Source: Spinacia oleracea (Eukaryota > Streptophyta > Magnoliopsida > Caryophyllales > Amaranthaceae). Taken from it: a stretch of DNA of 64,000 bases. Below are positions 4,923 through 46,500 of the stretch, in pieces; position 1 is the first letter of the stretch; each line of letters begins with the position of its first letter. The DNA lies in NCBI RefSeq assembly GCF_020520425.1, contig NC_079490.1, positions 1,612,001 to 1,676,000 on the forward strand. Reading direction: 5' to 3'. Under the pieces are notes generated by a model. That model saw only the letters and a list, made by a program, of their open reading frames with translations. It was not told where the DNA came from and searched no databases. Made by a program: the position numbers and the translations under genes.

Positions 4923-5126
4923 TAGAGGTGATCAAGTTGGGTCAGGCTGGGTTTTACACAAAATTCAAGCCCAAACCCATAAAAGTAGTGCGGGCTTTGC
5001 GGGCCTTAATGGGCTTTTCGGGCTCAACTCGGATTTTGGTCTTAAAATGCATATTTTATGCTACCCAAACCCATACTGGGTCGGGTCGGGCCGGGCTACA
5101 AGCAGGGCTATAGATGATCAGGTCTA
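4923..5126 (+). mobile_element. hAT-type MITE, GC-rich family, 204 bp
   Basis: Ends TAGAGGTGATCA and TGATCAGGTCTA form terminal inverted repeats. Perfect 8-bp target duplications ATGTGAAC lie at 4915-4922 and 5127-5134, as expected for hAT elements. The body is rich in GGGCC/GGGTCGGG words and stands out from the AT-rich surroundings. It is the same family as the copy at 13270-13438 in RH47. Confidence 0.88.
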
Positions 5127-8020: not shown

Positions 8021-9334
8021 ATGGGAAATCAAAGAGGACCAAGGCAATGGCCTTGGCTAGTGTACACCTTAATGTTATGCATGCTATCTACTTGTAATGT
8101 TTTAGCCATGGAACCTTACATGTATGTTTCTCCTCCACCGCCTCACCACGGCCACCAAGGCCACCTATACGAACACCACGGCCACCAAGGTCATGTATAC
8201 GAACACCACGGCCATATTAAGTCTCCTCCACCACAATCTCCGTACTACTACAAATCGCCACCACCTCCAAAACAATCACCACCTCCTTACATCTATATGT
8301 CCCCACCGCCACCTCCTCCTTATGTCTATAAATCTCCACCACCACCGGTACACTCACCACCACCTCCTTATATTTATAAATCTCCACCACCACCCGTACA
8401 CTCACCACCTCCACCTTACATCTATAAATCTCCACCACCACCCGTACACTCACCACCTCCACCACCGCCCGTGCACTCACCACCACCTCCTTACATCTAT
8501 AAATCTCCACCACCACCCGTGCACTCACCACCACCTCCTTACATCTATAAATCTCCACCGCCACCCGTACACTCACCACCTCCTCCTTATATTTATAAAT
8601 CCCCATCACCTCCTCCTTATATTTATAAATCTCCACCACCACCTGTACACTCACCACCGCCTCCTTACATCTATAAATCCCCACCACCTCCCGTGCACTC
8701 ACCACCACCTCCTTACATCTATAAATCTCCACCACCTCCCGTGCACTCACCACCACCTCCTTACATCTATAAATCTCCACCACCACCCGTGCACTCACCA
8801 CCACCTCCTTACATCTATAAATCTCCACCACCACCTGTACACTCACCACCTCCACCTTACATTTATAATTCTCCTCCACCACCTGTACATTCACCACCAC
8901 CCCCCTATATCTACAAGTCTCCTCCACCACCTCCTCCAAAGAAGTCTCATTCACCGCCACCATACATTTACAAGTCTCCTCCACCACCAGTACATTCACC
9001 ACCACCTCCGTACATCTACAAGTCTCCCCCTCCACCGGTACACTCACCACCATCTCCATACATCTACAAGTCACCCCCACCTCCGGTACACTCACCACCA
9101 CCTCCATACATCTACAAATCACCCCCACCACCGGTACACTCACCACCACCACCATACATTTACAAGTCACCACCACCACCGGTACACTCACCACCACCTC
9201 CGTACATCTACAAGTCTCCCCCACCTCCAATGAAATCTCCTCCACCACCATACGTTTACGCGTCACCACCTCCACCAGCGCACAAACCACCCACCCCATA
9301 CTATTACAACTCTCCACCACCTCCTTACTATTAG
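8021..9334 (+). CDS. Extensin, hydroxyproline-rich cell-wall glycoprotein
   Basis: Extensins are secreted, hydroxylated and glycosylated on Ser-Pro4 blocks and crosslinked through Tyr to strengthen the wall. This intronless 437-residue protein has a signal peptide (1-29, hydrophobic core LVYTLMLCML, cleavage after VLA). A His-rich linker follows (about 42-67, three HHGH units, two of them extended to HHGHQGH-x-YE). Then come about 17 units of SPPPPVHSPPPPYIYK with small variants, and a tail ending YYYNSPPPPYY. YIY and YYY are candidate Tyr-crosslink motifs. The start is set by the signal peptide and the TATA box at 7949. The repeats are very alike at DNA level, so the unit number could differ between alleles or be mis-assembled. 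The long open frames on the other strand and frame here are by-products of the repeat. Confidence 0.95.
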   Translation: MGNQRGPRQWPWLVYTLMLCMLSTCNVLAMEPYMYVSPPPPHHGHQGHLYEHHGHQGHVYEHHGHIKSPPPQSPYYYKSPPPPKQSPPPYIYMSPPPPPPYVYKSPPPPVHSPPPPYIYKSPPPPVHSPPPPYIYKSPPPPVHSPPPPPPVHSPPPPYIYKSPPPPVHSPPPPYIYKSPPPPVHSPPPPYIYKSPSPPPYIYKSPPPPVHSPPPPYIYKSPPPPVHSPPPPYIYKSPPPPVHSPPPPYIYKSPPPPVHSPPPPYIYKSPPPPVHSPPPPYIYNSPPPPVHSPPPPYIYKSPPPPPPKKSHSPPPYIYKSPPPPVHSPPPPYIYKSPPPPVHSPPSPYIYKSPPPPVHSPPPPYIYKSPPPPVHSPPPPYIYKSPPPPVHSPPPPYIYKSPPPPMKSPPPPYVYASPPPPAHKPPTPYYYNSPPPPYY

Positions 9335-12390: not shown

Positions 12391-12474
12391 TGTCAGAAGT
12401 GGGGTTCGAACCCACGCCCTCGTAAGAGGACCAGAACTTGAGTCTGGCGCCTTAGACCACTCGGCCATCCTGAC
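12391..12474 (-). tRNA. tRNA-Leu (anticodon CAA)
   Basis: Nuclear tRNA-Leu, 84 nt, without an intron. The acceptor stem pairs GTCAGGA with TTCTGAC and the discriminator base is A. The anticodon stem CCAGA/TCTGG encloses loop CTCAAGT, giving CAA, which reads UUG. It has the long variable arm expected of a class II tRNA, and B box GGTTCGAACCC. Upstream on the minus strand lies CAACAA, matching the CAA start motif common before plant tRNA genes, and a T run follows. The full cloverleaf suggests it is functional. Confidence 0.95.
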
Positions 12475-13261
12475 TTGTTGAGAATATTCTGTGTTTTAAT
12501 TTACATAACATAATAAACATTATCATTGGAACTTAATTGATTAATATATTGTGTTAGGGTATAGTTAATGTGTAACAAACCCTATCATATTCGGATTTAA
12601 TTTGTAAAAACGAATGTTTTATCTGAGCCAAAAAGTATAATTTGAAAATATAGTTGCACTCATGTCAAAACAAATTTGACCCTGTTTGACGGTAGCAATT
12701 CAGGGACTCGTAAATTACTAATATTAACAACTGCTACTTTGACAATTAACCTTTACCCGCTATTATTTGGCAACTATCTGCTTATAGTTTCCGCTACTTT
12801 GACAACTAACATTTACCCGCTACTAGTTTTAAACTCATGATTCACGAGTTCACGACCCTGAAATCATCGAATTCTTCCTTCTTCTCCATGTTCATATTCA
12901 TATTTATAGAAATCTAGAAAGCAGTCCATGCTATTTTCAGAATTCCAGCATCAGTTTCATTTGATTTCATATTCAGATGCAGGAATTCTGAAAACACTTG
13001 ATTTGCAGAACATTGACATGCAGAAATCTGGAAAGCAGTCCAGTGAACTGACTGCTTTACTGTTATACTTCAGTTGAATGACAAAATTCGTTGAACTTGG
13101 ATCAAATTCGAGTTTATTTCTCAGTATAAACACAAAAACCTACTCCGTAATAATGTCAGAAAGATTCAAAGAAGTATACATACTACATATGAATGAAAAA
13201 ACACGACTTTCTTCAGTTCACTAAACAAAGAGGTATACAATCGAAAGGTTAATCCTGCTAA
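12475..13261. other. Intergenic between tRNA-Leu and RH47
   Basis: Contains the presumed 3' UTR of RH47 on the minus strand and small local repeats: CTGCTACTTTGACAATTAAC at about 12731 recurs in altered form near 12794, and CAGAAATCTGGAAAGCAGTCC recurs around 12910-13040. No gene seen. Confidence 0.45.
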
Positions 13262-13269
13262 TTCTCTTC

Positions 13270-13438
13270 TAGACCTGATCAACTATAGCCCGACCCAAAA
13301 AAGTATGGGTTCGGGCATCCCCAAATACCCATTTTAGACCAGAGCCTAAGCCCGGCCCAAAAGCCTGCATCAAGTTTATGGGTTTGGGCACGAGTTTTGT
13401 GCTAAAACCCGACCCGGCCCAAATTTTGATCGCCTCTG
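13270..13438 (-). mobile_element. hAT-type MITE in the RH47 stop region, 169 bp
   Basis: Terminal inverted repeats TAGACCTGATCA (left) and TGATCGCCTCTG (right). Perfect 8-bp target duplications TTCTCTTC lie at 13262-13269 and 13439-13446. The interior matches the copy at 4923-5126, including GCCCAAACCCATAA. It disrupts the end of the RH47 reading frame and supplies its current stop codon. Confidence 0.92.
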
Positions 13439-15114
13439 TTCTCTTCATGTTCGGTGCTTCTCTTCTCCATCTCTTCCTCAACAAGAAGTTTACCTTCCAC
13501 GAATTCACACGACTGAATGGCCACCCCGAGCTGCTTTTGAATCTTCTTCATCACGAAAACTTCGTGCTGTTCACAAATGCTAACCACAACACCCTTCCTT
13601 CCTAGCCGGCCCGTCCTTCCAGCCCGATGTGCATAGTGAATCGAGTCCGTGGGCAAGTCAAAATTCACAACAAGATCACACTCTGCAACATCCAAACCTC
13701 TTGCAGCGAGCTCGTTCGTCACGAGTATTCTCAACTCCCCATTTTTGAACTTCTTTAGAACAGTTGACCGGGCCAGCTTGTTCAAATCCCCGTGAAGTTC
13801 TGCAGCTTGAATCCCACGCGCCTCCAACTTGTACACAGTGTCCTTCAACTGTCTGTTTAAGTTCATGAACACTATAACATACTTAGCATCAAGTGCATGA
13901 ACACATCTTCTTAATGTATCAACCTTGTGCTGTAACCTAGCTGTGCAGTAATAATGCTTCAGAAGCGGTGGTAAACTCTCAGATGATGCGGGAGATGGTG
14001 AGTTCGAGTTCTTGGAGTTTACTGAATTCACCGGGCCAGATGTCGGGTTCGGGGTTGAATCAAGTGGGGTCACACTTTTGGCTCTGACAAGAACCGGGTC
14101 TCTTCCCCAGCTTAAAGCCGCTCTTACTACTGAAGTTGGCACAGTTGCAGACACCATTATAGTTTGCCGTTCAGTTCGAGGGTTGTTCCCCGTTTGGGAA
14201 CCAACTACTGACTTCTTTTTCCCGACATGTTCCAGAATCCTGTGCATATCTTCACGAAAGTTGAACGCAAGAAGTTCATCTACTTCGTCCAACACCAAAA
14301 ACCGACATCCATGTGTATGAAGCTTACCAGCAGCACTAATCTCAGCTATGCGGCCTGGTGTACCAACAACAATGGCGGGCTTGTTTTTCTTAAGAGCTTC
14401 TTCCTGCCTCGATCTGTTAGCACCCCCTACCAACTGCTGAACCATTCTCTTATGTGTGGGTCCCAATAGCTTCTCAACTTCCCGAACAATCTGCATTCCC
14501 AGTTCCCTAGAAGGAGCAACGATAACCGCTTCCACATCCTTCTTCTTTCCAGAATCTTCCGGAATACCAGATTGCTTCTTCTTAAGAGGGCCCACCTCGG
14601 AGAGTATTGGAAGTAAATACGCGAGAGTTTTCCCGGACCCAGTGTAGGATTGGATCACAGCATCATGCCCTTTCAAAACAGTTGGAACTGCAGTTGATTG
14701 TACATCAGTAGGAACTGTAAAACCTTCCTCTTCTAATCTCCGTAACAACAATGGTGGAAGTCCTATTTCAGGAAATGATTCGGCAGCAAATGGAGCTCCC
14801 TCTATTTCAATGGAGTTTCTCACAGTATTCACACTAGCTTCTTTGACACGAACTAGCTTTGTTTTCCTTTTCGGCACTTCAATTGTAGTAGGATTCAACT
14901 CACCAACTCTATCAACTTCACTCCCTTTACTTGTTTCCACTTTATCTCTAAACCCGAGGCTAGCAAGAGTAAGTGGGGTATTTTCGTTCCTTAATCTACT
15001 AAGAAACCGAACATTTCTGGGGTAACAAGCTGTTCTAGGAACAAGTAATAATCTCCCCAATGGTAAAGACTCCCCTACTAGGAAAAGCAAGCGTGATGAC
15101 AACAATGCTGGCAT
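13402..15114 (-). CDS. RH47: DEAD-box RNA helicase 47, organelle-targeted
   Basis: ATP-dependent RNA helicase. The Arabidopsis orthologue RH47 (ISE1) is mitochondrial and affects plasmodesmata. Single coding exon, 570 residues. The N terminus is rich in Leu, Arg and Ser and poor in acidic residues, fitting a transit peptide. Helicase motifs in order: Q motif (Gln139), TGSGKT 158-163, PSREL 201-205, TPGR 252-255, DEVD 276-279 in place of DEAD, SAT 322-324, HGD 441-443, ARGLD 471-475 and HRAGRTGR 496-503. All catalytic residues are present. Residues 560-570 and the stop come from a MITE (13270-13438). Removing the insert and one target copy would give Glu-Glu-Asn then TAG, so the old protein ended at residue 559. 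A 5'-UTR intron lies upstream. The family is certain; the orthologue assignment is very likely. Confidence 0.95.
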   Translation of the reverse strand: MPALLSSRLLFLVGESLPLGRLLLVPRTACYPRNVRFLSRLRNENTPLTLASLGFRDKVETSKGSEVDRVGELNPTTIEVPKRKTKLVRVKEASVNTVRNSIEIEGAPFAAESFPEIGLPPLLLRRLEEEGFTVPTDVQSTAVPTVLKGHDAVIQSYTGSGKTLAYLLPILSEVGPLKKKQSGIPEDSGKKKDVEAVIVAPSRELGMQIVREVEKLLGPTHKRMVQQLVGGANRSRQEEALKKNKPAIVVGTPGRIAEISAAGKLHTHGCRFLVLDEVDELLAFNFREDMHRILEHVGKKKSVVGSQTGNNPRTERQTIMVSATVPTSVVRAALSWGRDPVLVRAKSVTPLDSTPNPTSGPVNSVNSKNSNSPSPASSESLPPLLKHYYCTARLQHKVDTLRRCVHALDAKYVIVFMNLNRQLKDTVYKLEARGIQAAELHGDLNKLARSTVLKKFKNGELRILVTNELAARGLDVAECDLVVNFDLPTDSIHYAHRAGRTGRLGRKGVVVSICEQHEVFVMKKIQKQLGVAIQSCEFVEGKLLVEEEMEKRSTEHEENRGDQNLGRVGF

Positions 15115-15127
15115 TTTCAGAAGATGT

Positions 15128-16090
15128 TCTTAAACTATTGTTAATCAACAAACAGTTTTGTTACCCAGCACAAGGTAAGATGTTCTTTAACCAATTGTTA
15201 ATCCAACAATCAGTTTCTTTACAGCACAAGGTAAGATGTTCTTGACCAATTGTTAATCAACAAACATTCCCATTACAGCACTAGTTTCAGAGTTCAGACT
15301 GCCCAGAAAATTACCAATTGTTAATCAACAAATAGTTTTGTTACCGAACAAGAACAAGATAACGCAGCCGGTTGGTAACAAAGGCTTCAGAGTTCAGACT
15401 GCCAATAAATAACCAATTGTTAATTAACAAACAGTTTCTTTACAACCCATTAACATGAAAATCAATCAATAACCAATAATTATAAATTCCACATGCTTCA
15501 GACTGAAAGAACACACAAGAACTAAAACCCAACAAATAACCAAAAATTATTGCTCAAATTCAGCTCAATCAAACCCTAATTAACAGTTCTTAAACTATTG
15601 TTAATCAACAAACAGTTTCGTTACTAACACGAGGTAAGATGTTCATTAACCAATTGTTAACCCAACATATAGTTTGGTTGCAGCACAAGGTAAGATGTTC
15701 TTAATCAATTGTTAATCAACAAACACTCCCCATTACAGCACTAGCTTCAGAGTTCAGATTGCCCAGTAATCAACCAATTGTTAATCAACAAACAGTTTCT
15801 TTACAGCCCATTAACATGAAAATCAATCAATCACCAATAATTATAAAATCCACATGCTTCAGACTGAAGAACACATAAGAGTTAAAACTCACTAACTAAC
15901 CAAAATTAGCACCAATTACTGCTCAAATTCAGCTTAATCAGACCTTAAGAAACAGTTCCTTCAACAACCCATTAACATGGAACCAATTATTGCTCAAATT
16001 CAGCTTAATCAGAGTATCAGACCCTAATAAAATGTTCCTTTAACAACCCATTAACATGAAAATCAATCAATAAAAAAACCTGGTTGAGAA
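15128..16090. repeat. Tandem duplication, about 463-bp unit, in the RH47 leader intron
   Basis: TAAACTATTGTTAATCAACA at about 15132 recurs at about 15595, and the order of later blocks (GAGGTAAGATGTTC-like, CAGAGTTCAGA, CCATTAACATGAAAATC, CCACATGCTTCAGACTG) repeats too. Within each unit the word CCAATTGTTAATCAACAAA recurs several times, so it is a two-level repeat. Confidence 0.8.
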
Positions 16091-31879: not shown

Positions 31880-34800
31880 TCATCTTTTAAGAAGAATCTC
31901 TTTTGTTGGATCTTGTGTGAGTATCTTGATTGGCATAGAATCAATGTTTGGTTCTGACTGTGTGAACAGAATCAGGGTCTGCATGGTGACTATAACAAGT
32001 AGCAGAACTGCAGCTGATACTATAATTCCTGGCCATGTCGCGAAAACTTGAGTCCAGAAAAAGAACCCGAAAGCACCCATGCCAAGTAAACAAGACCAAA
32101 CAATCATCACCTGTTCATAAACAAAAAACCGAGAAAATCAAATCAATCATACGCCAAAAGGCCGTGACTCCGTGAGGATAAGCTAGACGCCTAGACCTGA
32201 TCAAATTGCGGGTTGGGCTGGGTTCGGGTTGGGCTGGGTTCGGGTCGGGCCACACCATTAGGTCGGCCGGGCCAAATTTCAAGTTGAATTTTTCTGCCCA
32301 AAACCAAATTTTAGGGCCAAAATAGCGGGATTTTTAGGCCAATTTCGGGCAAGACCAAATTTATAACTAAATTGCAATTTTGAGTTGCCCAACACCCACC
32401 CAAAAACAAAAACAAAAAAAGGTCGGGCCCGAAAAACAGGCTTAAAAGTTCTGCCCATAACCCGCTGCTTTCGGACCGGGTTGGCTGGGCCAGCGGGCCG
32501 GGATCATGATGATTAGGTCTAGGATAAGCTAATCAGTTTTGTTATGCTGCAAGCCTGCTATCAGGCCTTGTTCTCTTCACCTATTTTGGTTGATCTAGTC
32601 TGATTTTTCTCGTCTGATTTTTCTCGTCTGATCTAATAAGCAATAAAATAATGTGAAAAAGAACAGAGCCTTATTAGTGTCTTACAATTAATGATTTCTT
32701 TGGTCGACCAAAATCTTGAAGTTCTTCGCTACCAAAACTGCCACCTGAAAAGTACTGATCCAAGAATGCGTCCTGGTGAAGTTCAAAGGACACAAGGTTA
32801 AAATCAAGCAGAATCAAAGGAATCAACCAGGCAGGATATAAATGATTATCTTTTCTTTTTGAAAAATTTCATGATAAGAATGATTTATTGGTCAAATACT
32901 CTGTAAGATGTTCTTCAGAGCTTGTTTTCCAATAGAACAGCTAAAATCAGTTTCATATTTGAAACAGATGCAATTTCAGTATAGTGTGATTTTATTTGAG
33001 CTTATTTTCCAACAGAACAGCTAAAATCAGCTTCATATTTTAAACAGATGCAATTTCAGTATAGTGCGATTTATTTTACGCCTAAAGGTCTAAACCTACC
33101 TTATTACATACTCAATTTTATGGCATAAATTGTGAGACAAATTGATTTGGACTCAACTAAAATGAGTAGATAACTCCCACCACCTTGTAAACTTTGGGGA
33201 TCAACCTCCCATGCTTCCCCTTCACTCCCTTCCCCTAGTGAGACTCATCAGTCATCATTTTTTACCTTCCTAAAAAGTAAAAAAAAAAAGATGAAAGGCA
33301 TAAATACCACCCAAACAACCAGTTAAATCAAACGGTTTCACATTCTTTTCCCCTTCTTTCCCTTTACCCCGTTCAAACCAAACGGCCCCTAATAGTATGA
33401 TATCCATTTTAGGTACCTAAAATAGATGGGACTTTCTACTTCATATTATACATCGAAGGAAATAAGTCTTGACACAAATAGTTAAATCAAACGGTTTCAC
33501 ATTCTTTTCCCCTTCTTTCCCTTTCTTGATTTCATTCCCTTTACCCCGTTCAAACCAAACGGCCCCTAAGACGCTGATATTCATTATGGGTACCTACAAT
33601 AGATGGGACTTTCTAGTTCATATTATACATCGAAGGAAATAAGTCTTGATGCAAAAGGTACACTTATGCCCCCCTCCCCCCTTCTTTTCCAGGTGAAAGT
33701 TGTCATTATCCTAAGCTGCAGAATTTTAGTGGTTCTTACTGTAGTTCTTAGTCTCCTTACCTTGGCCACAAACAGGTTTGTGCACCACTGTGCAATACCA
33801 TCACTAGTTTCGGGCAATTCGTGCATCAAATGCCGCTTAACATGCACTTTTACCTGGAACAAAAAGTAGCTAGAACATCAACATAGGGAATTAGCAAAAG
33901 AAAGAAATGACAGTTTCCTTTGGTGGAAGACCAAAGCATACAGCATTTTTTTTACCATATACACTAGTTGTCTTTTACTATACTTCTCTTTCCATTATGA
34001 GAAAAGGGTCTACAGCTTACCACAGAAGATTTTCCCTTTAGTAATGATAGCATTGAAGGTGGGTGACTATCTCTGGCTACGGTGAAGGTAACATCATACA
34101 CTGCTGGAACAAATGACCGCATATGTTTTACAGCTAGAACAAGACCCTGAAAACACCCAGATGGAAGTAACAGTATGTCAACATATATTATTAGCCGGTA
34201 GTTGTATTGAAGAAGAAAAAAGAGGCAATAGACATGATACCACATAAGTCTAAATTATAGCTAGAATAAGACCCTGAAATCACCCAGATGGGAGGTATTA
34301 GTCTCCCTAGAACCGGTAACATGAGTTGTGCATTGGAAATAGATTAGACAATAGGCACAAACGATACCAGTAATACCCCAAAATCCAAAAAATCATATGT
34401 AGTATTGGAAATACAGTTATAATTGTCTGTAGTAGTAAACACCGTTTTTGACATAATTTGGAGGTTCCCGGGCCCGGTTTCGGAAACTCCTAAAATTTGG
34501 GGGAATGTTCCTATGGTCTTATAAGGAAATTTTGAATCATAAAAAACCCACTCGTTGGTTACTTAAGGAGTTAAGGGCACGGAATGGCCTTGATTCAACA
34601 TTATCCGATTTTAAGAAAATCGGCTAAAATGTCATTTAAGAGGTGAAGTAGATGGTTCTAAGCACCCAATATGCCCCCAAGGGACCCACGGGGTATACGG
34701 GAAGCATTTGGACCTCTTACCTTTTCGGGTTCAAAAATGTCCAAAAATGAAGGCTAATACACCATTTTTTACCAAATTTGGAGGTTTCGGGACCCGGTCT

Positions 34801-43500: not shown

Positions 43501-46500
43501 TTACTGGCCATCCAGAGGGGTATGGATTTGTCGAGTTTGTTTCGCATGCAGCTGCTGAACGTGTTTTGCAATCGTATAACGGAACTCCCATGCCAGGAAC
43601 TGAGCAGCCTTTCAGACTAAATTGGGCATCATTTGGGATTGGAGAAAGAAGACCTGATGCGGGTCCCGAGCATTCTATCTTTGTGGGTGATTTGGCACCT
43701 GATGTTTCAGATTATTTGTTGCAAGAAACCTTTAGAGCTCACTATCCTTCAGTAAGGGGAGCAAAGGTTGTAACTGATCCGAGCACTGGTCGTTCAAAGG
43801 GATACGGGTTTGTTAAATTTGCAGATGAAATGGAGAGAAACCGGGCCATGACTGAAATGAATGGCCAATACTGTTTATCAAGGCCTATGCGTATTAGTGC
43901 TGCAACTCCTAAAAAGTCACCAGGGATCCAGCAACAGTATGCTGTAGCCAAAGGTAACCTTTTTTTCAGGCATACTTTATTCTAGACCTGGTCAAAGGCG
44001 GGCCGGGCTGCGACCATAAAAATCTGCCCATTATGCTGGGCCGGGCCAATTTTGTGTGCCCAAAACTGCTATTTCAGGCCAAAAATAACGGGCTTTTGGG
44101 CCACTTTGGGCTAGGTCAAATTTATAACTAAAAATTGGTGTTTTACGTTGCCCAAAGCCCGTTTTTTAAATACCGGGCAGGGCCCGAAAACTGGGCCGAA
44201 ATATTCTGCCCAAAACCCGCTACTTTTCGGGCCGGTCGGACCGGGATCATGTTGATCAGATCTACTTTATTCTTATTTGCAAGATTTCTCATAACATTTT
44301 AGCATTTTGGATCTTTTCCTGTGTGATTTCGAACATGTAGAATGTACTCAGCTTTATTTTACTTTGACAGCCCTATATCCTGCTCCAACATACGTAGTGC
44401 CAGCAGTTCAACCAGTTCAACAATTACCAGTGGAGAATGATCCGAATAATACAACGGTAAGTGGGAAGCAGAGATGGGCCATGTCAGTGTATCTGGACTT
44501 ATGATACCTTGTCTTATTAGCTTTTATGTGTACTTTCTTTTTTTTGCAGATTTATGTTGGTAATTTGGACCCAAATGTAACCGAAGAAGAGCTGAGACAA
44601 CATTGCTTGCATTTTGGAGAGATTGGCTATGTCAAGATCCCAGCTAGTAAAGGATGTGGTTTTGTGCAGTATGCAGTTAGGTAGGTATATTTATAGCTTT
44701 CTATAACGCATGACTTAGTCTCCATTAATATATGGTTATGCCTGTGTAATCTTTCTCTTTTGACTAATAACTTATCAATTCCTTAAATGTATTGTGTTGT
44801 TTGCAGGGCATCTGCTGAAGAAGCTATACTGAAGATGCAAGGAACTGTGATAGGTCAGCAACCAGTTCGTGTTTCATGGGGCAAGAGCCCAACTGCTAAA
44901 CAGGTAATGTTTCCCTGGAAAATTTTCAAGCCCTCTGTATAATTACATCCATTTAGAGTACATTTACTTTCAGCTTCGAGTTTACGCAAATTCAGAAGTC
45001 AGGCTCCATTCTATTCAACTTATTTTGACTGAACTTATATTATCTGAACTTATATTATCTGAACTTAACTGAACTTATTTGAACTTATTTTATGTGAAAA
45101 AAACTTATTTTGTCTGAAATAAACTTATTTGTGTGTGAAAATGTCTGAAAAAAACTTATTTTTTTCTGAACTTATCTGAACTTATTTGAACTTAACTAAA
45201 TTTTTCTGAACTTATTTTGTCTGAAATAAGTCGAACTGAACTCTGAAACATCTTTAGGACTCTGCTGCATGGGGTCAGCAAGTGGATCCGAGCCAGTGGG
45301 GTGCATACTATGGATATGGGCAAGGTTATGACGCCTACGCATATGGTGCTGGTGCTCAGGACCCATATGCTTACAATGCATATGCTGGGTATGCTCAGTA
45401 TCCTCAGCAGGTGAGATCTTTGTCCCTAACTTCTAAATTACAGATGTTTCTGTCATAATGTAAATGGAATTGCATTTGATTTGTTAGTAGCAGTTGTTTA
45501 GTGTCTTTTATTTATTTACCTTTCAAGTTTCATCAACACTAAAACAGATCATTTGACCCTCGCTTTGACCGTATTGATGTTTCTGTCATAATGGAAATGG
45601 AATTGCATTTGATTTGTTAGTAGCAGTTGTTTAGTGTCTTTTTTTTTTTTTTTTTACCTTTCAAGTTTCATCAACACTAAAACAGATCATTTGGCCCTCG
45701 CTTTGACCGTATTGATGTTTCTGTCATAATGGAAATGGAATTGCATTTGATTTGTTAGTATCAGTTGTTTAGTGTCTTTTATTTATTTACCTTTCAAGTT
45801 TCATCAAGACTAAAACAGATCATTTGCCCTCGCTTTGACCGTATTGATGTTTCTGTCATAATGGAAATGGAATTGCATTTGATTTGTTAGTAGCAGTTGT
45901 TTAGTGTCTTTTATTTATTTACCTTTCAAGTTTCATCAACACTAACAGATCATTTGCCCTCTCTTTGATCGTATTGTCTTTCCTTCAGGCCTTTCTGCAA
46001 CTTTTCTATTACATATCCTGATTCAAACTTCTCATAGTTGGGTACTTGGATTTTGGGATGATATATGAATGCCTGTTTCTGATAAACCTTGTATAGGATT
46101 GAAAGGAAAACATCCTCTAGAACAAAAAAAACAAATAGAAAAAGAAAATGTTGGACTTATAACTGGCATTAATATATGAATATACTTCTGCCAAAAAAAT
46201 ATGATGTTAGTCGGAATAACATCATTAACAATTTGAACTTGCTAGATGACTGATAGGCTTGACATAGATCTGGCTAATACACAACCTATATACATTATGG
46301 ACTTTTTTTTGTGGGGTTAGAAAGAGTGTTTAAACCTCTGAAGTTTGATTAAAGTACAAAAGTGGGTTTGGTAATTATGCTCGACTCTTGACGGATGTTG
46401 GACTTGGTAGTCTTCATGGTCTTTACTCTTTACGTTACGGATTTCTTTTTTGTCAGGGACTCGGGACCGGGGGATGGGAAGGGAGTGTTTATGTCTACGA

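Follow-up and report, generated by a model that had tools for sequence, protein, structure and literature searches.

How does the reading frame of a single-copy RNA helicase gene of spinach come to end inside a transposable element, and what did the protein gain or lose by it? The gene lies in the window, a stretch of 64,000 nucleotides of Spinacia oleracea contig NC_079490.1. Its predicted product carries the two domains of the RH47/ISE1 helicases, DEAD (residues 136-329) and Helicase_C (residues 397-505), both above the Pfam cut-off. The next best of 61 matches in the host genome is only 34% identical, and the window locus is the only well-matching one; neither a second copy of the gene nor an empty site was found in this genome. 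Six peptide patterns run against each of two non-plant collections brought up no relatives among 91 pattern stretches (genome_contigs) and 19 (viral_contigs). The name RH47 comes from an earlier note on this DNA, and we take RH47 to be the same gene as ISE1. A published account describes ISE1/EMB1586 of Arabidopsis (At1g12770) as a DEAD-box helicase of mitochondria that embryogenesis depends on (PMC11122041). A putative Arabidopsis counterpart is identical to the spinach protein at 342 of 548 aligned residues (62%). In this alignment the spinach protein extends 15 residues beyond the end of the other, the surplus corresponding to HEEN plus 11 residues encoded by the element; the comparison serves as a lead rather than as a test.

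The junction between gene and element can be read to the base. The earlier note had described a MITE of 169 bp with perfect 8-bp duplications, and its coordinates and counts proved right: TTCTCTTC stands on both sides, identical at 8/8 positions, and the local chance of equal 8-mers between two flanks of about 200 bp amounts to 1 of 40,000 comparisons. On the coding strand the order is ...GAACAT, GAAGAGAA, element, GAAGAGAA, TTAGCAGG..., and nothing interrupts the helicase frame on its way into the element. As the note had also read correctly, the frame enters at the third base of codon 559 (13440-13438). This base is the first of the element on the coding strand and turns AAT into AAC, with Asn being kept. 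Codons 560-570 (RGDQNLGRVGF) all come from the element, as does the stop codon TAG at 13404-13402, and the last 37 coding-strand bases of the open reading frame, stop included, thus lie within the 169 bp. If the element and one duplication are taken out, the flanks read GAA GAG AAT TAG; an empty site would accordingly end with Glu-Glu-Asn-stop, and on this point we agree with the earlier note, the ancestral state being deduced from the flanks.

Table 1. Features at the end of the helicase gene (window coordinates)
Feature	Position	Strand	Remarks
DEAD-box helicase open reading frame	13402..15114	-	570 codons and stop; RH47 according to the earlier note
hAT-type MITE of 169 bp forming the end of the helicase gene	13270..13438	- (strand of the gene)	family, termini, duplications
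Frame end encoded by the element (third base of codon 559, codons 560-570, stop TAG)	13402..13438	-	same register read in 78 other copies
Near-side copy of the target site duplication, TTCTCTTC, within codons 557-559	13439..13446	.	
Far-side copy of the target site duplication, TTCTCTTC, in the presumed 3' UTR	13262..13269	.	
Putative ancestral stop TAG	13258..13260	-	in frame only without the element and one duplication; flanks side by side
Candidate polyadenylation signal AATAAA	13113..13118	-	sequence match; no second exact copy on the coding strand from 13560 to 12900

Our preferred reading is that a MITE inserted into the last sense codon, replaced the stop and added 11 residues, and that the old stop now lies in the 3' UTR; we give this reading as a whole a probability of about 85%. 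The event would comprise three steps: (i) A non-autonomous hAT-type MITE landed two bases into the last sense codon and made the 8-bp duplication, the split Asn codon remaining Asn. (ii) Translation now enters the element for 11 codons and ends at the stop that is usual to the MITE family in that register. (iii) The old stop, presumably the TAG at 13260-13258, and 132 bases of the element became 3' UTR. Because the insertion hit the last codon, which comes 54 residues after the Helicase_C match has ended, none of the old residues would have been lost, and the effect was probably close to neutral. Because the frame runs directly into the element, no splicing would be needed to make the tail, and the mRNA is presumably read unspliced at the junction. 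Peptides from the tail, if it is translated as predicted, would span STEHEENRGDQNLGR. The earlier note had spoken of exonisation, a term that usually means recruitment by splicing. Going by the sequence, the element went directly into the last sense codon, and an insertion that replaced the stop describes the event better. The observation made in that note is confirmed, and its interpretation is supported in part, namely for a hAT-type MITE in which the frame ends and for the reading of the empty site.

It is improbable that the tail is missing from most transcripts, be it through a cryptic intron or through polyadenylation ahead of the stop. A donor-like AAG/GTAAAC at 13493 (the slash marks the cut) and an acceptor-like ...TTGATGCAG/G ending at 13365 lie 129 nt apart, and further acceptor-like sites occur within the element; however, with a frame that is open into the element splicing is unnecessary. 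Early polyadenylation is disfavoured by the position of the one exact AATAAA between 13560 and 12900, which follows the new stop after 284 nt and the old one after 140 nt. Since this candidate signal is past both stops, the same polyadenylation region could have served before and after the insertion. As RNA, the element is predicted to fold at -66.9 kcal/mol (z -3.48), more stably than 200/200 shuffles, as would suit inverted repeats; we claim no function for this fold.

We give equally little credence to the idea that the gene did not originally end with EEN-stop, the TAG past the element being a later or a chance product, and that the old protein was longer. Once the MITE was in place, the sequence behind it could change freely, and stop codons make up 5.7% of the triplets in the roughly 300 nt downstream of it, so that an adjoining in-frame stop falls short of proof: a stop would stand in the very next codon by chance with a probability of about 6%. 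Still, the stop follows the joined duplication at once, as the first whole codon, which is suggestive of the old end, and the putative Arabidopsis counterpart ends before the EEN position. An ancestral end with EEN-stop is thus what the flanks suggest. An assembly misjoin is an unlikely source of the whole arrangement, because it would hardly be expected to leave exact duplications precisely at the ends typical of the family, and this within a frame that stays open.

What kind of element is it? It is a short, non-coding, multi-copy transposon with terminal inverted repeats. The genome that we searched (894,210,420 bases in 242 contigs, six of them of 115-189 Mb) contains 41 matches to the window copy in a whole-element search, for which 40 of 144 candidates were scored. 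The exact 17-mer of the terminus has 83 copies (0 in a reversed control), and the 21-nt terminus with up to two mismatches 315 matches (7 in the control). We scanned 109 loci, 27 of which held no new delimited element, some because they repeated another copy. From the 106 delimited candidates, which include some copies counted in both orientations, 28 were dropped: they showed a kept copy in its opposite orientation or a second time, fell outside our length filter of 120-230 bp or scored below 60. The 78 kept copies stem from the whole-element search (26) and from the exact 17-mer search (52), in which 70 of the 83 matches were read.

Three lines of evidence speak for the hAT type that the earlier note had proposed. 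First, the duplications are of 8 bp: among the 78 unique copies 17 are exact and 27 have one mismatch (44/78), the other 34 having two or more, whereas mispaired flanks, used as a control, agreed with at most one mismatch over 8 bp in 14 of 11,130 pairs. Among the 106 candidates, 26 have exact duplications at 8 bp and none at 5, 6, 7, 9, 10 or 11. Second, the termini are inverted; those of the family, TAGACCTGATCA and TAGAGGTGATCA, are alike at 10/12 positions, and those of the window copy, TAGACCTGATCA and CAGAGGCGATCA, at 8/12. Third, the element is short and multi-copy. We therefore class it as a non-autonomous hAT-type MITE. Like other plant MITEs of the hAT superfamily it combines 8-bp duplications and short terminal inverted repeats with the lack of coding capacity and with many diverged copies; the median distance of the copies from their consensus is 0.168, and the family is thus old. 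Of the duplication consensus of hAT elements, nTnnnnAn, there are only weak traces: 22 of the 44 duplications have T at position 2 and 18 have A at position 7, each being the commonest base there, and TTCTCTTC itself fits at position 2 only.

The window holds further elements of this kind. A second copy of the same family (4923-5126, 204 bp) lies in opposite orientation within an exact 8-bp duplication, ATGTGAAC, and a longer MITE of 282 bp (43983-44264) has the related termini TAGACCTGGTCA and TAGATCTGATCA and the exact duplication CTTTATTC. A stretch of 330 bp (32192-32521) has MITE-like inverted termini and a GGGCC-rich interior; no 8-bp duplication matches there. For the spinach genome at large, a repeat survey (PMC6337768) gives 397 hAT elements, together with 445 MITEs of unknown kind.

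Did the helicase gene shape its new end, or did it receive it ready-made? In the register in which the helicase frame enters, 34 of the 78 other copies run for exactly 11 codons of the element before they meet a stop, often as NRGDQNSGRVGL or something similar; the remaining 44 stop earlier, later or not at all. As so many copies share this reading, the 11-codon tail is not peculiar to the helicase gene: by its sequence it is the usual reading of the family, common though not universal, rather than something built at this locus. At the stop position, 60 copies have TAA, one has TGA, 14 have a sense codon and three a gap, while TAG is found in the window copy only (0/78 others). Over all six registers 301 of 468 copy-by-register cases end within 15 codons, so that a short tail would be the usual outcome of such an insertion, and the family acts as a ready-made short tail plus stop. 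In a search for other genes ended in the same way, 3 of 78 copies (L136, L148 and L151) were entered by an outside frame of at least 80 codons, a count that is a lower bound since most of the 26 copies from the whole-element search have flanks of about 100 bases, which is too short, and most of the others 400. Judged by reading, these three frames resemble repeats or chance frames, and to that of L151 the element contributes no sense codon; we claim no further gene as ended by the family.

The earlier note had called the insertion dated and had shown no date; an estimate can now be given. The window copy and the consensus of the 78 copies disagree at 22 of the 169 positions, through 19 transitions and 3 transversions, corresponding to a distance K of 0.148, or 0.111 without CpG sites; with a 29-copy consensus there are 23 differences and the distance is 0.156. 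Twelve of the 22 differences are common family variants and ten are private, i.e. bases present in less than 10% of the 78 other copies. The private changes give a distance of 0.062, and hence 9.5 My at a substitution rate of 6.5e-9 per site per year and 4.7 My at 1.3e-8, both being assumed rates. The total divergence at the lower rate sets an upper bound of about 17-23 My. This suggests an age of roughly 5-10 My and of at most about 23 My, and because of this age it is unlikely that the insertion is polymorphic within the species.

If the tail were made and selectively kept, the case would matter more. That purifying selection has maintained it in this lineage, and that it serves a mitochondrial RNA helicase as an exapted C terminus with a function, is the least probable of the alternatives that we weighed, and the sequence gives a weak hint of it. 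Three of the ten private changes fall into the 37 nt of the tail, and all are silent or preserve the stop (TAA to TAG). As 15 of the 37 possible transitions would be silent, three out of three has a probability of 0.067 if transitions fall at random. The rare changes of the other copies in that register, in comparison, comprise 34 silent ones and 89 that are not, and 14 of the 78 have, as mentioned, a sense codon where the stop would be. Yet these are three changes only, examined post hoc, and if the L-to-F site is counted as derived as well, the score becomes 3/4 with P = 0.19. Moreover, the window copy departs from the consensus at 7 of 37 tail positions and at 15 of 132 elsewhere, whereas across all copies divergence is lower in the tail than in the rest (0.101 vs 0.151): the window copy thus shows the opposite of constraint. 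For 52 of the 78 copies an exact match to a 17-mer within the tail was the ground of selection, and this inflates the conservation of the tail in the other copies.

As for the source of the MITE, sequence similarity may point to a hAT element. Three of the 30 hAT-transposase loci that we scanned, out of 150 scored matches, carry downstream of the transposase domain a terminus, TAGACCTGTTCA, that matches the first MITE terminus at 11/12 positions and is followed by a GGGCCGGGC run. At the hAT-transposase loci L095, L096 and L099 the downstream terminus TAGACCTGTTCAACGGGCCGGGC resembles the MITE end and may mark autonomous relatives of the MITE. The other MITE end was not found in the stretches scanned, and a complete autonomous partner was not seen among the 30; the 3-kb loci held no larger element with MITE termini and an 8-bp duplication.

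A transposon that replaces the stop at the end of a gene is a known kind of event, of which the spinach helicase is a clean but ordinary example. Among the titles and abstract openings listed in a literature search, a part of the papers found, there was no earlier report of this insertion. The closest parallel is RU-1 (ERIC) of enterobacteria, a repeat resembling a MITE to which the amidase gene ECA3499 is fused at its 3' end (PMC2759123). The two cases share a short mobile repeat at the 3' end of a gene for a conserved enzyme, the displacement of the normal stop, the gain of residues past the conserved domain and a frame that closes at a stop within the repeat. RU-1 is, however, bacterial and a different kind of repeat that added about 35 residues rather than 11, and for ECA3499 the authors compared orthologues, whereas the old end of the helicase is read from its own sequence. 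The value of the spinach case lies in its being a base-exact record of a transposon that took over a stop codon without the loss of a residue.

A few other features of the surroundings should be mentioned. Upstream of the helicase open reading frame (15120-16080) degenerate CCAATTGTTAATCAACAAACAGTTT-like motifs, repeated many times over, can be recognized by eye. Between 12000 and 16000, comparison with Rfam gave tRNA only, namely a tRNA gene on the minus strand (12391-12474) that scores 56.9 bits against the tRNA family. Finally, an open reading frame of 437 codons (8021-9334) is made of SPPPPYIYKSPPPP-type repeats, and we presume that it is extensin-like.
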